Shown here piece by piece: positions 57,375 to 63,631 of a DNA stretch of 64,000 nt (position 1 is its first letter; each line of letters begins with the position of its first letter). Below the pieces are notes generated by a model that had not been told where the DNA came from, did no database searches, and was given only the letters and a program-made list of their open reading frames with translations. The stretch spans positions 1 to 64,000 of the forward strand of contig UCFC01000031.1 of assembly GCA_900471515.1 (NCBI GenBank), given 5' to 3'. The translations under genes were made by a program, and so were the position numbers. Source of the DNA: Hyphomicrobiales bacterium (GTDB lineage: Bacteria > Pseudomonadota > Alphaproteobacteria > Rhizobiales > Rhizobiaceae).

Positions 57375-58112
57375 ATGAAAATCGGTGCCTATGTCATCAA
57401 CCTGAACCGTTCCATCGCCCGCTGGGAAGGGCTGTCGCGGAAGGCCAGTTCGCTTGGGCTCGACGTCGTCAGGATATCCGGGGTGGATGGCTCGCAGATC
57501 GAGGCCCACGACAAGGCTGATATCGACAGGCGGCAGTTTCTTCTTCGCAACGGCAGGAACTATCTGCCGGGCGAGCACGGCTGCTATCGCAGCCACGTCA
57601 AGGCGCTGACCGAGTTTCTCGACAGCGGCAACGATGCGGCGATCATCATGGAGGACGATGTCGAACTGCAGGCCGATCTGATCGAGCGCGCGGAAGCCGT
57701 GCTTGCCGCGCTCCCGAAAGCGGAACTGGTCAAGCTGCTGAACCACCGCTCCAAGGGGTTCATGCAGAAGGCGACGACGAAATTCGGCGATGCCATAGGC
57801 CGTTGCATCCACGGGCCGCAGGGCTCGGCCGCCTGTTATCTGGTCACGCGATCGGGGGCAGGCAAGCTCCTGCGGACCATGGCCGTCATGGTCTATCCCT
57901 TCGATGTGGCATTAGAGCGCGGGTGGTCTACCGAGGTTAATACCTTTACGGTCAAGAACAATCTGATAGAGCTAGGGCCGAACAGCCACGAGACCGCGAT
58001 TGCGACGAAGCTCGACTACAGGCGGCAGAAATTCAAGGGAATACGCCGCTCCGTCACGCATCTGCTTCGCGCCGCCGATTATGCAAGAAGGGTGCAATAT
58101 TCTCTATGGTAG
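57375..58112 (+). CDS. Glycosyltransferase family 25 (LPS/LOS biosynthesis)
   Basis: A 245-residue transferase of GT25, adding sugar (often galactose) to lipooligosaccharide or surface glycans. It starts MKIGAYVINLNRSIARWEGL, then has LPGEHGCYRSHVKALTEFLD, and the metal/donor motif IIMEDDVELQADL. The C-terminal region has GPQGSAACYLVTRSGAGKLL. It overlaps the O-antigen ligase gene by 7 bp, implying translational coupling and a role in polysaccharide assembly. Acceptor unknown. Confidence 0.9.
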   Translation: MKIGAYVINLNRSIARWEGLSRKASSLGLDVVRISGVDGSQIEAHDKADIDRRQFLLRNGRNYLPGEHGCYRSHVKALTEFLDSGNDAAIIMEDDVELQADLIERAEAVLAALPKAELVKLLNHRSKGFMQKATTKFGDAIGRCIHGPQGSAACYLVTRSGAGKLLRTMAVMVYPFDVALERGWSTEVNTFTVKNNLIELGPNSHETAIATKLDYRRQKFKGIRRSVTHLLRAADYARRVQYSLW

Positions 58113-59452
58113 CGAGCGAAGAGCCGATCGCCACGCCCTCCCGCGTCAAATCCGTCCTTGTCATCCTGTGGCTGCTGATGATTTCGGCTCCCATCGTGGA
58201 AAGCGATACCTATCGCTATGTGGCGCTGCTGCTGATCGGGACGACCTTCGTCTGGTTCAAGCCGAATCTGAACCTGCTGCGGCGCGACTGGCTGGCGAAT
58301 GCCTGTATCGTATGGGGCGCCTATGCGCTGCTGCGCTTCCTTTTCGGCCTGATCGTCGACGGCGAGAAAGGCGCGTCGGACTGGCTCTATGCCTTTCCGC
58401 TGTTTTTCCCCGCGGTCGGCATCGCGCTTTATTCCGGGCGCAAACATGTCGAAACGGTCTTTGCGATCTATTTCCCGGTGGCGCTTGCCGCGCTGCTGGT
58501 CTCCACCGACTACCGGCTGATCCTTGAAGGCGACGTGCGCATTTCGCCGCTCTACCACAACAACCTCATTCATGGCGCGATCGGCTGCGGTTTCCTGATG
58601 ATCGGCGCCTTCTACTGGCTGTTGAATGCCTGGGAGACCGGCAAGCTGGCGCGCCGTTCCGGTGCGTGGATCATTGCCGTCAGCATGTCGATTATCGCGC
58701 TCTGCCTCTTCAATATCTACGGCTCGAAGGCGAAGGGCGTCTGGCTGAGCCTCGTTCTCGTCGGGCCTCTCATGCTCGCTTCGCTGCTGCTTTACGCAGA
58801 CAGGCGCCGTGCCGCCGTTGCGGGTCTGGTCGCTTTGCTCTTCATTTCGCTCGGGATCTGGGTCGGCTGGAACAGTATCTGGACCTTCGCCGGCCCGACC
58901 TATGAGGCCGCCGCGCGGATCGCCACAGAGGTTTCGCAGCGCGGGGGAGTGTGGAACGCTGTCGCCGCCGCCATTGCGTCCAGCGATACGCCGAATGCCA
59001 TGAGCGAGCGGCTGCAGCTCTGGGCGAACGCTTCGGAAGTGATTGCCCAGGCGCCGTTCTTTGGCGCCGGAAACCATTGGCTCACGCTCTGGCGCTCGAC
59101 CACCTATGCCAGCGTGCCTTACACGCTTCTCCACAACGGCTATTTCGAAATGCTCGTCCGCCACGGGCTGTTCGGCATCGTGGTTTTCGCCATTCTGGCG
59201 GGCGCCATGTACAGGCGCGTCGTGGCCGCGCGGAGGCAGAGGCTGATCAGCCTCAGCGCATTGCTGGCCTACACGATGGTGACGCTGTTCTTCCTTGGAA
59301 CGATCCTGTCCAATTCCAACAACCGGCTGGCAATCGGCGAATCGTTCTTCTTCGTGTTTTCCGCGGTCGCGTTCGCCTGCGGGATCATGGTGAAGAAGGG
59401 GGAGATCAGGCAGGAGACCGGCATCGTATCTCGGGACCGGAAGGCTGCCTGA
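58106..59452 (+). CDS. O-antigen ligase family protein (WaaL/Wzy-like)
   Basis: A 448-residue integral membrane protein with 10-12 hydrophobic segments. The large periplasmic loop (about residues 260-345) includes FFGAGNHWLTLWRSTTYASV and HNGYFEMLVRHGLFGIVVFA, the Wzy_C/O-antigen ligase signature with a conserved His. It joins polymerised O-antigen to the lipid A core, or polymerises another glycan. Start at 58106 overlaps the GT25 gene by 7 bp. It is the second gene of a two-gene surface-glycan unit. Confidence 0.9.
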   Translation: MVASEEPIATPSRVKSVLVILWLLMISAPIVESDTYRYVALLLIGTTFVWFKPNLNLLRRDWLANACIVWGAYALLRFLFGLIVDGEKGASDWLYAFPLFFPAVGIALYSGRKHVETVFAIYFPVALAALLVSTDYRLILEGDVRISPLYHNNLIHGAIGCGFLMIGAFYWLLNAWETGKLARRSGAWIIAVSMSIIALCLFNIYGSKAKGVWLSLVLVGPLMLASLLLYADRRRAAVAGLVALLFISLGIWVGWNSIWTFAGPTYEAAARIATEVSQRGGVWNAVAAAIASSDTPNAMSERLQLWANASEVIAQAPFFGAGNHWLTLWRSTTYASVPYTLLHNGYFEMLVRHGLFGIVVFAILAGAMYRRVVAARRQRLISLSALLAYTMVTLFFLGTILSNSNNRLAIGESFFFVFSAVAFACGIMVKKGEIRQETGIVSRDRKAA

Positions 59453-59876: not shown

Positions 59877-62093
59877 ATGGAACGCCGCCTTGCAGCAGTA
59901 CTGATTGCCGACATTGTGGGCTATGGCCGTCTAAGCCAGGTCGACGAGGAGGGCACGCGTCTGCGTTTCCAGGCAGATCTGAGGGACGTCGTCGCGCCGC
60001 TGATCGCGCGCCACAGCGGACGGCTGGTCAAGACGATGGGCGATGGGCTGCTGGTCGAATTCCACAGCGTCGTCGACGCCATGAACTGCGCCATAGACGT
60101 GCAGAAGCAGAAGGCCGAACGGAATGTCGGCGTTCACGCCGACCGGCGCCTGGACTTTCGCATCGGCATCAACCTGGGCGACATTATCGTCGAGGGCGAG
60201 GATATCCATGGCGACGGCGTCAATCTCGCCGACCGGATGCAGGCGCTCGCAGAGCCCGGCGGAATCGCGATCTCGGGTGCGGCCTACGACCAGGTGAAAT
60301 CGAAGCTCGCGGTCGGTTTCGTCTCTCTCGGCACTCAAAGGGTCAAAAGCATCGCCGAACCCGTGCGTGTCTACCGCGTGGTGTTCGATCCGGCCGCGGC
60401 GAAGACGTTTGCCAACCTGCGCAGCTATCTCGGCCGCCGGCGCACCGCGGCGATCGCCGCCGCCGCCGTCCTCGCCATTCTGGCGGGGGCGGCACTGTGG
60501 TGGCAGCCGTGGGGGCTGCTCGAAAGCCCGTCCTTGACCCAGCGCTTCGCCTATCCCCTGCCGGACAAGCCTTCCGTTGCCGTTCTGCCGTTCATCAATG
60601 TCAGCGGCGACGTGGCGCACGATCATCTTGCCGAAGGCCTGACCGACGATCTGATTACGGAACTGTCGAAAGTTTCCGGCCTGTTCGTCATCGCGCGCCA
60701 TTCCGTTTTCGCGGTGCGCGACGATGGCGGCAAGATACAGGACGTGGCGGCCGAACTCGGGGTTCACTACGTCCTAGAGGGCACGTTGCAGCGCGCCGGT
60801 TCGCGATTGCGCATCAACGTCAAACTGATCGATGCGCTGACCGGGCTTTCGATCTGGGCCGAGCGCTATGACCGCGAATATGCCGATCTCTTTGCGGTGC
60901 AGGACGACGTCATCAGCAAGATTATCGCCGCACTTGCCATCAGGCTCAGCGACGGCGAGCGCACGCAGCTGGCGCAGATCCCGACGGAAAATCTCGAAGC
61001 CTATGATTATTACATGCGCGCCGAACAGGCGGGGCTCACCTATGGAGACGTGGCGACCTATCGTGAGGCGCTGTCCTATTACCAGAAGGCGATCGATCTC
61101 GATCCGAATTTTGCCGATGCGCATGCGGGAATCGCGCGGATTGCCGTCGATGTCTGGCGCAACGACTACAATATCCTCTGGTCGGCCGCCGTTGCCCGCA
61201 AGATCGCCTACGACGCGGCAGGGGAGGCGCTGAAGATCGATCCGAACAATGCGCGCGCGCATACGGTGCTTGCCCTCCTGCAACTGGTCGACGGGCGCCA
61301 GACGGAGGCGCTGATTTCGGCCAACCGCGCCGTGCAGGCGCAGCCGAGCGATGCCGAAGCCTATGCCAACCTGGCGCTGGTGCTTGCGCATATCGGCAAT
61401 CACGAGCAGGCGGTCGAGGAAATGGAGAAAGCGCTGCGTTTCGATCCTTCGCCTTCGGCAGGCTTCCAGCTGCTGGCCGGCATCGTTTTCTACATCGTCG
61501 GAGACGAGGACCGGGCGATCTCGCTGATGGAGGCCGCCCGCGACGCCTTGCCCAATGCGGAGGCGGCACGCGAATATCTGACGGCGGCCTATATAGACGA
61601 CGGGGACAGGACGCGCAGCCTGCAGGAGAAAACCAAGCTGCTCGAACTCTTTTCCGAGAGCAACCTGACCTATTACAGCTATCTCTACGACTACTGGCGC
61701 AGCGACGATCTGAGCAAGCATCTCGGCCGCCTGCGCAAAGCCGGCATTCCGGACTGGCCCTTTGGTTTCCAGGGCGAGAAGGGCGATCTCGTCACCGGCG
61801 AAGAGCTGCGCGACCTCATCGGCGACAAGACCTGGACCGGCAAACACCGCAACGGCACGCAGTTCGTGCAGTTCTTCGACAAGGCGGGCAATACCGCCTA
61901 TCGCAGCGCCAATACGAACATTACCGGCACTGTCGAAATCAGGGGAGACTGGCTCTGCGAGAAATTTCCGGGCTATTTCCTCGACCGGATGGTCTGCGGC
62001 AACGTCTACCGCAATCACGCCACCGAAGAGCCCGGCGCGACATATGTGCATGTCACGCCGCAGGCGCTGAAATTCTTCTCGATCGAGCGCTGA
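59877..62093 (+). CDS. Class III adenylate/guanylate cyclase with TolB-like, TPR and C-terminal domains
   Basis: A 738-residue signal protein. The cyclase domain (about 1-175) keeps the metal Asp12 (VLIADIVGYGRL) and Asp56 (LVKTMGDGLLVEF). A membrane helix (about 194-214) follows, then a TolB/FlgO-like domain (about 225-345: PSVAVLPFINVSGDVAHDHL, YVLEGTLQRAGSRLRINVKL). Three or more TPRs follow (about 370-590, for example AYANLALVLAHIGNHEQAVE). The C-terminal domain (about 630-735) starts LIGDKTWTGKHRNG and resembles the DUF995-type fold, with paired cysteines in WLCEKFPGYFLDRMVCGN. The cyclase is cytoplasmic and the rest periplasmic, so it could report envelope state. Confidence 0.9.
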   Translation: MERRLAAVLIADIVGYGRLSQVDEEGTRLRFQADLRDVVAPLIARHSGRLVKTMGDGLLVEFHSVVDAMNCAIDVQKQKAERNVGVHADRRLDFRIGINLGDIIVEGEDIHGDGVNLADRMQALAEPGGIAISGAAYDQVKSKLAVGFVSLGTQRVKSIAEPVRVYRVVFDPAAAKTFANLRSYLGRRRTAAIAAAAVLAILAGAALWWQPWGLLESPSLTQRFAYPLPDKPSVAVLPFINVSGDVAHDHLAEGLTDDLITELSKVSGLFVIARHSVFAVRDDGGKIQDVAAELGVHYVLEGTLQRAGSRLRINVKLIDALTGLSIWAERYDREYADLFAVQDDVISKIIAALAIRLSDGERTQLAQIPTENLEAYDYYMRAEQAGLTYGDVATYREALSYYQKAIDLDPNFADAHAGIARIAVDVWRNDYNILWSAAVARKIAYDAAGEALKIDPNNARAHTVLALLQLVDGRQTEALISANRAVQAQPSDAEAYANLALVLAHIGNHEQAVEEMEKALRFDPSPSAGFQLLAGIVFYIVGDEDRAISLMEAARDALPNAEAAREYLTAAYIDDGDRTRSLQEKTKLLELFSESNLTYYSYLYDYWRSDDLSKHLGRLRKAGIPDWPFGFQGEKGDLVTGEELRDLIGDKTWTGKHRNGTQFVQFFDKAGNTAYRSANTNITGTVEIRGDWLCEKFPGYFLDRMVCGNVYRNHATEEPGATYVHVTPQALKFFSIER

Positions 62094-62127: not shown

Positions 62128-62640
62128 CTATTGGGCGGACGGATGCTGCCAGTCCTTCTGCGCCTTTTCCGAGATCAGGATGTTCTGCACTTCCGACCAG
62201 TGCTTCTGGGAATCGACCACTTTCGTCGGGTTCTTCACCAGTCCCTCGGCGGCCCCCGGATCGTAGCTGATATAGAGCTTGCCGTCGATGATCCGCCAGG
62301 CATTCGGGTCGATATTGGTCGTCACCGTTCCGAAGGACACGCCATCGGCGCAGTAGCCGCCATATTGCGGGGCATATTTGCCGGGATCCTTGACGAACAT
62401 GTCGCGATGTTCGGCGCTGGCGAAATACCAGGTCGCGCCCAGCCAGTGGTGGGAATATTGCGGCGATCCCTGCACCGCCTTGTCGTCGGTGAAATAGGCG
62501 ACCGGGTCGTAGCCCTTGATCGCCACATCCCCGAAATAGCCGGTATTGACGAAATCCTCCGCCGGGGCGGGTTCGGCAAGCAGCAGGACGGCAAGGCCGC
62601 CCATGGCCGCAGCCTTCACAAATCCATTCCAGTGAGACAT
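62128..62640 (-). CDS. YHS domain protein, exported
   Basis: A 170-residue protein with a signal peptide (AAAMGGLAVLLLAEPAPAE). A YHS domain follows, with GYFGDVAIKGYDPVAYFTDD, then HHWLGATWYFASAEHRDMFV and YAPQYGGYCADGVSFG, the conserved pattern of YHS domains thought to bind metal (copper or iron). It lies 30 bp downstream of an exported ankyrin protein gene on the same strand, so the two are probably co-transcribed. Role in the periplasm unknown. Confidence 0.9.
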   Translation of the reverse strand: MSHWNGFVKAAAMGGLAVLLLAEPAPAEDFVNTGYFGDVAIKGYDPVAYFTDDKAVQGSPQYSHHWLGATWYFASAEHRDMFVKDPGKYAPQYGGYCADGVSFGTVTTNIDPNAWRIIDGKLYISYDPGAAEGLVKNPTKVVDSQKHWSEVQNILISEKAQKDWQHPSAQ

Positions 62641-62670: not shown

Positions 62671-63261
62671 TCATTTGCGCTTCGTGCACTCGTCATAGAG
62701 CCACTGACCGGTAAGGTCCGCGCCCTGACAGGCGGCGCCCGCTTTCAACAATAGGGTGACGGAATCCCAGTGCGACCGCCATCCGGCCTGCGTCACCGGC
62801 GTGTAGCCGTTTCGTTCCTTCGGCTCGATATCGGCCTTCTGCGCGAGCAGGAAAGCAATGATATCGGCGTGGCCTTCTTCGGCCGCCGCGTGCAGCGGCG
62901 TCATGCTGTAGAAGTTCTTGTGGTCGTTGACCGAGGTGCCTCTCGCCACGAGAAGTTCCACGACATCGAGATGGCCGCCATAGGCCGCCGCATGCAGGGC
63001 CGTCAGCCCGCCCTTGTTGCGGATTTCGATGTCGCAGCCCCGGTCGAGAAGAAGGGCGACGACATCGGCCTTGCCCGAAAGAGCTGCGATCAGCAGCGCC
63101 GGCTCGCCGGTGGCGTCAGGCTCGGAGAGGTTTGCACCCTGATCCGCAAGCTGCCTGACGCGCTCGACATTGCCCTCGCGCGCAGCGTCATGCAGCGGTC
63201 CCGCCGAAGCGGCGGAAATCCCAAGGCCGAGACAGATGAAGCTTGCCCAAAACACATTCAT
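62671..63261 (-). CDS. Exported ankyrin-repeat protein
   Basis: A 196-residue protein with a signal peptide (MNVFWASFICLGLGISAASA). Four to five ankyrin repeats follow (about 20-165): GPLHDAAREGNVERVRQLAD, GEPALLIAALSGKADVVALL, ALHAAAYGGHLDVVELLVAR, TPLHAAAEEGHADIIAFLLA. It ends with a Cys pair near the C-terminus (AACQGADLTGQWLYDEC). The start at 63261 fits the signal peptide; 63294 would add a basic extension. It is upstream of the YHS gene, with which it likely forms a periplasmic pair. Confidence 0.88.
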   Translation of the reverse strand: MNVFWASFICLGLGISAASAGPLHDAAREGNVERVRQLADQGANLSEPDATGEPALLIAALSGKADVVALLLDRGCDIEIRNKGGLTALHAAAYGGHLDVVELLVARGTSVNDHKNFYSMTPLHAAAEEGHADIIAFLLAQKADIEPKERNGYTPVTQAGWRSHWDSVTLLLKAGAACQGADLTGQWLYDECTKRK

Positions 63262-63631
63262 CGCGCACCCCCGTCTTGCCATCCCTGGCCTCACAAGCGC
63301 GAAAACGTGGTTAAGCTACCATGAATATGCGCAACCGACAATAAATAGCGGTGTTGTCTGACACCAGTATCCGGAATATGTGGGAATCTCTGGGATTGTT
63401 TGGGAACTTGCGAAAACTGTCCGGAAATCAGGGCTTTCTGCGCCAAAAGCTCAAATTTGAGTGACGATCTTTTTGACATCCCCAAACAGCCTCACGCAAC
63501 AAAATTAGTCGATTGGGCGGGGAATCCCCAACTGCTTCGAAAAACCTTCAAAATCCCAAAAGCGCCTTCGAGCGGTCCTCAAATCCTGCAATTCGAGGCT
63601 TTTTGAATTTCAGATAGTGAGTAGATAGTTG
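63262..63631. other. Intergenic region between ankyrin gene and IS fragment
   Basis: About 370 bp with no supported gene. The sequence is less GC-rich than the genes nearby, with short repeated GGGAAT/TGGGAA stretches, and no tRNA, RNA family or att site is recognised. A 64-codon minus-strand frame (63291-63485) shows no family features. It could be old IS or decayed gene sequence. Confidence 0.4.

Follow-up and report, generated by a model that had tools for sequence, protein, structure and literature searches.

A predicted membrane-bound class III cyclase with a lipocalin-like C-terminal barrel is linked to secreted-type YHS and ankyrin-repeat proteins in rhizobia

Our analysis ties a predicted single-span class III cyclase, whose C-terminal domain (CTD) is modelled as a barrel, to two convergent neighbour genes coding for secreted-type proteins, one of the YHS_seleno family (hereafter YHS) and one with ankyrin repeats (Ank). 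The three genes lie in a 64,000-nt stretch of DNA, here called the window, from a genome of 5.99 Mb in 83 contigs (Table 1). The anatomy of the cyclase, its topology signals, the barrel fold, a remote kinship of the CTD with DUF995 and the three-gene linkage are each supported, and the linkage suggests, on sequence grounds, that the triad may form a three-part sensing module. The two neighbours are the stronger clue, and were absent from the first-pass annotation of this DNA.

Table 1 Features of the cyclase locus, with coordinates in the window
Feature	Coordinates	Strand	Basis or remark
Cyclase ORF, 738 aa, ATG start	59877..62093	+	Cyclase homology domain-TM-FlgO/TolB-like-TPR-lipocalin-like CTD; predicted membrane-bound class III
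Cyclase homology domain, residues 1-170	59877..60386	+	Pfam PF00211, conservation, PDB 3mr7
Transmembrane helix, residues 190-211	60444..60509	+	Hydropathy; Arg-rich stretch just before
FlgO/TolB-like domain, residues 229-365, predicted periplasmic	60561..60971	+	Sub-cut-off FlgO match
TPR region, residues ~373-600	60993..61676	+	Pfam TPR models, modelled helices
GIPDWPFGF motif, residues 623-631, TPR-CTD junction	61743..61769	+	Positions mostly invariant
CTD, 8-strand barrel, residues 641-738	61797..62090	+	AlphaFold2, structural neighbours, DUF995 profile link
Cys694 codon (in WLCEKF)	61956..61958	+	87/88; predicted disulfide partner of Cys707
Cys707 codon (in MVCGNV)	61995..61997	+	88/88
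YHS_seleno-family protein, 170 aa, signal-peptide-like start	62128..62640	-	NF041384; convergent with cyclase
Ankyrin-repeat protein (Ank), 207 aa, signal-peptide-like start, C-terminal Cys pair	62671..63294	-	Pfam Ank

To place the cyclase among its relatives, we kept the best 80 of 126 confirmed stretches from a scan of genome contigs, giving 79 named loci, all of which hold a cyclase relative at 57-91% identity, including one frame-broken before the CTD (L087) and one cut at its end (L133); the best named CTD matches are from Rhizobium, in a collection from which the records closest to the window may be missing. Among 61 related genomes, a CTD profile (E<1e-30) found 19 sites in 14 genomes, with three sites each in G011 and G025, two in G029 and a broken frame in G013. 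Class-wide, the CTD profile was found in at least 5 of 385 genomes (E<=0.001; a lower bound, with at most 10 candidates scored per genome), as three cyclases (own genome, L137 and L138) and two small stand-alone CTD proteins (L139 and L140) whose starts resemble those of lipoproteins or signal peptides. Weak matches among the 61 relatives (E ~0.005-0.006) include two small, secreted-looking proteins (L182 and L183), and a further weak match, L184, is a cyclase-TM-linker-CTD protein of ~430 aa that lacks TPRs; all five of L139, L140, L182, L183 and L184 carry two cysteines within the CTD. The architecture had been annotated as uncommon, which holds class-wide, where two of the five or more matches are stand-alone, but not in rhizobia, where it recurs across the 79 named loci.

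The neighbours accompany these cyclases with great regularity. By tblastn, YHS and Ank adjoin the cyclase tail-to-tail in 78 of the 79 named loci, that of R. johnstonii 3841 (L102) among them, the exception (L133) stopping at a contig edge, and at the 19 strong sites of the 61 genomes YHS lies beside 19/19 and Ank (E<=1e-30) beside 18/19. All 18 Ank matches at this threshold in the 61 genomes sit beside CTD cyclases, while 15 further YHS matches (E<=1e-20) lie elsewhere and are weaker (best 5.8e-29). One genome (G034) has nearly lost Ank, with ~13 residues of its end remaining; among distant cases, the triad is complete in G214, and G067 has YHS together with an end of Ank at the contig edge. 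When the 79 named loci are pooled with 21 genome-derived ones (100 loci, five contigs occurring in both sets), the triad is complete in 98/100, and in 98/98 the cyclase is on the strand opposite to YHS and Ank. The stop-to-stop gap between cyclase and YHS has a median of 19 bases (78 values) and spans 0-132 bases excluding the broken L087; at plasmid locus L287 it reaches several hundred bases.

We also compared distance matrices for the three genes at 18 of the 21 genome loci (G034, G013 and G067 were dropped for missing or broken genes), and obtained correlations of 0.97 for cyclase-YHS, 0.97 for cyclase-Ank and 0.94 for YHS-Ank, values as high as which appeared in none of 5000 permutations. 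The copies G011c/G029c/G003 are mutual nearest neighbours in all three genes, as are G011b/G025c; the nearest neighbours of G025b and G029b differ from gene to gene. Judged by these sequence distances, the triad is inherited as one block, the matched distances reflecting co-inheritance and not contact.

Linkage is not universal from the side of either the CTD or YHS. Three cases led us to reject the idea that every CTD gene has YHS and Ank. Sinorhizobium meliloti R28 pSymA (L283:2150-4384) carries a divergent-CTD cyclase without YHS or Ank and with an opposite-strand cyclase gene upstream, and its CTD as query finds 3/385 genomes. Genome G054 (L231:3979-5271) encodes a cyclase-TM-linker-CTD protein of ~430 aa with neither TolB/TPR part nor YHS/Ank neighbours; here the CTD barrel seems to have been joined to a cyclase independently. 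In G021 a weaker match (E 1.7e-9) falls in a TPR-CTD frame of 338 aa that lacks the cyclase, the second cysteine, YHS and Ank. The YHS family is in turn common without the triad (113/385 class genomes at E<=1e-15), and a general tie between YHS and cyclases was rejected: a cyclase lay within 1.5 kb at 3 of 40 sampled non-triad YHS loci, a count that may be chance and in which the search model contained 2 of the 3. At two of these (L264:2054-3358 and L254:2114-3343) YHS adjoins a different, multi-span-looking class III cyclase, the third (L262) being recognized by profile only. An ankyrin gene was found at 0/40 non-triad YHS loci, and, as a control, a cyclase or ankyrin gene at 0/27 DUF995 loci. 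An Rfam scan gave no match, and promoter and terminator scans gave no excess over shuffles.

The YHS protein scores 136.8 bits against NCBIfam NF041384 (YHS_seleno; cut-off 70), placing it in that family, and 24.1 bits against Pfam YHS, under the cut-off of 30.3. Its sole invariant cysteine lies in GGYC and is present in 98/98 sequences (leaving out G067, which reads GGLC there), and the C-terminal cysteine pair of Ank is present in 97/97 (G067 again left out). A hydrophobic start (mean >=1.2) is seen in 68/99 YHS and 88/97 Ank sequences, which are partly clipped at the start; the signal-peptide-like starts of the window proteins were judged by eye. The YHS_seleno family has a GxU selenoprotein motif, according to the available passages of a 2026 review (PMC13188914), and the triad YHS has an invariant cysteine in GGYC; a thiol or metal role for this protein is a fair guess.

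A precedent by analogy is the adenylyl cyclase of Mycobacterium phlei, a class III enzyme likewise tied to a YHS domain: in the available passages of its description (PMC4626032), the fused YHS domain confers Cu2+ activation, its copper site comprises one Asp and three Cys, and several Rhizobium species are said to have similar YHS-cyclase fusions. The M. phlei domain is fused and cytosolic with three Cys and an Asp, whereas the triad YHS is separate, has a signal-peptide-like start and offers one Cys; the triad cyclase in addition spans the membrane and comes with an ankyrin protein, a word absent from those same passages (PMC4626032). Copper sensing through the published YHS site is not supported, as the triad YHS has one Cys column (98/98) and not three. 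The open-access literature searched yielded no description of a YHS, ankyrin and cyclase triad.

Turning to the cyclase itself, a Pfam scan places the N-terminal domain in class III, with Guanylate_cyc (PF00211) matching residues 7-158 at 41.7 bits (cut-off 21.9). Among PDB sequences the adenylate/guanylate cyclase 3mr7 matches best (E 9.6e-38; structural Z 27.5), and the nearest PDB relatives are class III cyclases, a point in favour of an adenylate cyclase receptor. Conservation was read from an alignment of 88 sequences that includes the query, the frame-broken L087 and the contig-cut L133, and in which at least five contigs, judged by length, are present twice, so that rows are not independent. 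D12, D56, D109 and R120 are each kept in 88/88 and K52 in 86/88; we take D12 and D56 to be the metal ligands, K52 and D109 to be of the adenine type, and R120 to be the transition-state arginine. The annotated metal aspartates of a class III cyclase are therefore kept throughout the set, and because adenine-type K52 and D109 are retained, cAMP is the likelier product; the earlier suggestion that cAMP or cGMP is changed can thus be narrowed towards cAMP, with cGMP less likely.

The protein has a single strong hydrophobic peak, at residues 190-211, with a 19-residue hydropathy mean of 2.14 against 1.33 for the next best; this region reaches at least 1.6 in 83/88 sequences (median 2.13). Lysines and arginines in ~16 residues average 5.5 before the helix and 1.5 after it, and are more numerous before than after in 84/88, with 3 ties. 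Cysteines after the helix number two in 84/87 sequences and three in 3/87 (L087 left out). Taken together, the hydropathy, the charge bias and the conserved cysteines favour a C-terminus in the periplasm, so we predict a cytoplasmic cyclase domain, a single membrane span and a periplasmic remainder, in agreement with the annotated split of the cyclase from the TolB/FlgO-like and TPR part by one helix and against an all-cytoplasmic protein. A comparable helix is missing from four CTD-less TolB/TPR cyclases of the same genome (best 19-residue means of 0.87-1.61 after the cyclase core). Belonging to this family therefore does not by itself make a TolB/TPR part periplasmic, and we predict that within the TolB/TPR cyclase family the CTD-bearing form alone is a transmembrane receptor.

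After the helix, residues 251-320 match Pfam FlgO with 20.8 bits (E 3.7e-4), under the cut-off of 22.6 and hence outside formal membership; FlgO is detected in 44/48 relatives and TolB_N in 1/48 (E<=0.01), and the FlgO-like domain by itself gave one match to PDB sequences, at E 0.35. Several Pfam TPR models score above cut-off, the best stretches falling within residues 395-534, and the annotated succession of TolB/FlgO-like and TPR regions after the helix is borne out in this form. Residues 247-524 also resemble CadC-type regulators (NCBIfam NF007540), at 41.5 bits, which is far under the cut-off of 400 and does not confer membership. The output of CadC is a DNA-binding domain, and CadC-type regulators differ further from the 738-aa cyclase in having no CTD barrel. 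Two proteins of the same genome (L003 and L013) combine TolB-like and TPR regions with an N-terminus that, by eye, looks like a winged-helix DNA-binding domain in place of the cyclase.

The CTD is more than a chance extension, as it recurs in the 79 named loci and gives a high-confidence model. AlphaFold2 on residues 602-738 (66 sequences) returned two helices followed by eight strands with pLDDT 91.7 and pTM 0.83, a distinct barrel that fits the separate C-terminal fold proposed in the first-pass annotation; the full-length protein was modelled with less confidence (pLDDT 79.1, pTM 0.51). The WTGKHRNG motif of that annotation corresponds to residues 653-660, and its paired cysteines to Cys694 in WLCEKF and Cys707 in MVCGNV. 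These lie in modelled strands 692-696 and 705-712, in a register (694+707 = 696+705) that would allow them to face each other, and we predict that they form a disulfide. By VIA-align the nearest structures are lipocalin-like 4i95 (Z 9.7, rmsd 2.9, 90 aligned), the designed barrel 9hag (Z 9.6), Treponema TP0435 (9.5) and 4iab (9.5), so that the model supports a barrel fold, with lipocalin-like proteins and designed barrels nearest and tied in score.

Direct searches with the CTD alone matched no family in Pfam, NCBIfam, PHROGs or PDB sequences. A Pfam scan of 18 CTDs gave three chance-level matches of one member each (E 0.017-0.096), and none of 18 CTDs including the query was reported against DUF995 (PF06191) at E<=10, leaving them outside its 20-bit membership limit; the stand-alone relative L139 reached 16.4 bits (E 0.008). 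As DUF995 appeared in 1/142 genomes of a class-wide sample, the own genome only, we built a DUF995 profile from 28 same-genus sequences and compared profiles with hhalign after trimming signal peptides. Probabilities were 98.2 for CTD against the stand-alone set, 96.2 for the stand-alone set against DUF995, 65.5 for the CTD alone against DUF995 (P 5.8e-5) and 94.9 for the CTD joined with the stand-alone proteins (P 4.2e-8), compared with maxima of 2.2 (CTD), 7.9 (stand-alone) and 1.4 (joint) over 50 column shuffles of DUF995 and at most 0.2 for reversed DUF995. With scores far above shuffled controls, the CTD is a remote relative of DUF995, whose small rhizobial proteins have a similar order of motif and cysteines, although the CTD is invisible to a direct Pfam scan. 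Of the annotated DUF995-like, lipocalin-like end, a barrel fold with lipocalin-like proteins among its nearest structures (AlphaFold2, VIA-align) and a remote DUF995 kinship (hhalign) are thus supported, and Pfam DUF995 membership is not. The DUF995 protein of the own genome (L001:1393-1965; 176 bits) is far from the CTD in sequence.

Our preferred reading, which we hold tentatively and a little short of even confidence, is a one-pass adenylate cyclase receptor that would act together with YHS and Ank through its periplasmic part, perhaps reading thiol/redox or metal state. Class III enzymes make their product as dimers, and the cytoplasmic domain would make cAMP in this way; the periplasmic part would consist of the FlgO/TolB-like domain, a TPR superhelix and the lipocalin-like barrel, the last probably closed by the Cys694-Cys707 disulfide. 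Secreted YHS and/or Ank would report the periplasmic thiol/redox or metal state, would bind, singly or jointly, to the TPR/barrel part, and binding would alter the geometry of the cyclase dimer and move cAMP up or down. Kept catalytic residues, helix, charge bias, cysteine pair, barrel, secreted-looking CTD relatives and linkage speak for this reading; catalysis, the disulfide, export and contacts between the proteins are inferred, as are the signal and the direction in which it acts. Counting against it are the CTD genes without neighbours in S. meliloti, G054 and G021, the loss of Ank in G034, the frequency of YHS without the triad, the absence of the published copper-site cysteines, the helix-less TolB/TPR cyclases of the same genome and the modest full-length model. 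A narrower version, in which secreted YHS would report redox or metal to the barrel through the one cysteine that occupies the selenocysteine position of its family, with Ank as adaptor or inhibitor, strikes us as rather unlikely.

Linkage would suit pathway effectors as well as sensor subunits, and YHS and Ank form their own unit on the opposite strand; it is therefore conceivable, if on balance unlikely, that they serve a stress-related function in the periplasm, possibly controlled by cAMP, while the cyclase senses something else. The evidence against this is weak: a Clr-type site pattern matched the window 4 times where chance predicts 6.3, none of the matches lying between or near the triad genes and the nearest ~1.6 kb upstream of the cyclase, and Ank is confined to sites beside CTD cyclases (18/18 at E<=1e-30 in 61 genomes). 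We consider it quite improbable that the barrel is itself the binding site for a small ligand in the periplasm (a lipid or peptide, as the first-pass annotation suggested, or a sugar) and that the neighbours are incidental: lipocalin-like proteins do rank among its top structural neighbours and small secreted-looking CTD relatives exist, but Foldseek returned 477 matches at E<=10 and 0 at E<=0.001, and the kept neighbours would be left unexplained. Linked inheritance without shared function, the triad merely moving as a block through plasmids or duplication, is more improbable again. Triads do occur on plasmids (48 plasmid records match the CTD, with the triad in 8/9 of those examined, among them plasmids of Ruegeria conchae, Microvirga ossetica and S. 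fredii NGR234, and S. meliloti R28 pSymA as the exception), some genomes have multiple copies and a transposase-like gene lies near the G214 triad by eye; against this, order and orientation are kept in 98/98 even as cyclases of complete triads diverge down to 38% identity to the window, and the flanking genes change, those upstream of the window cyclase being common to 7/79 loci, the open frame nearest Ank on its far side to 0/79 and farther frames to 1-5/79 (loci extend ~2.8 kb past Ank). That the whole protein is cytoplasmic and residues 190-211 span no membrane, as the four helix-less TolB/TPR cyclases of the same genome might suggest, is barely credible given the hydropathy peak, the charge bias in 84/88, the conserved cysteine pair and the secreted look of stand-alone CTD relatives.

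To our knowledge, few rhizobial class III cyclases have a known signal, and the kept pair of secreted partners offers a practical starting point for asking which signal one of these enzymes may detect. In the available passages of PMC13001267, 28 class III cyclases are annotated in S. meliloti, among which the CHASE2 cyclases CyaD1/D2/K likewise carry a sensor domain outside the cell, and cAMP rises upon sensing via the outer-membrane partner NsrA; their sensor is CHASE2, as against the FlgO-TPR-barrel of the 738-aa cyclase, and those passages name no YHS or Ank genes for them. The triad could also give roles to DUF995-like domains, on which nothing related was found in the open-access literature searched, and to secreted YHS proteins, which received passing mentions only.

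Finally, some surroundings of the triad were recorded. The Ruegeria conchae triad (L284) has genes for a cation diffusion facilitator and a DUF411 protein nearby, and that of Rhizobium sp. SL42 (L281) has arsenic resistance genes; these are 2/4 annotated triad neighbourhoods, the other two having sulfonate and ABC transporter genes. Upstream of the window cyclase, at 57375-59452, a glycosyltransferase family 25 gene and an O-antigen-ligase-like (Wzy_C) gene overlap by 7 bases.
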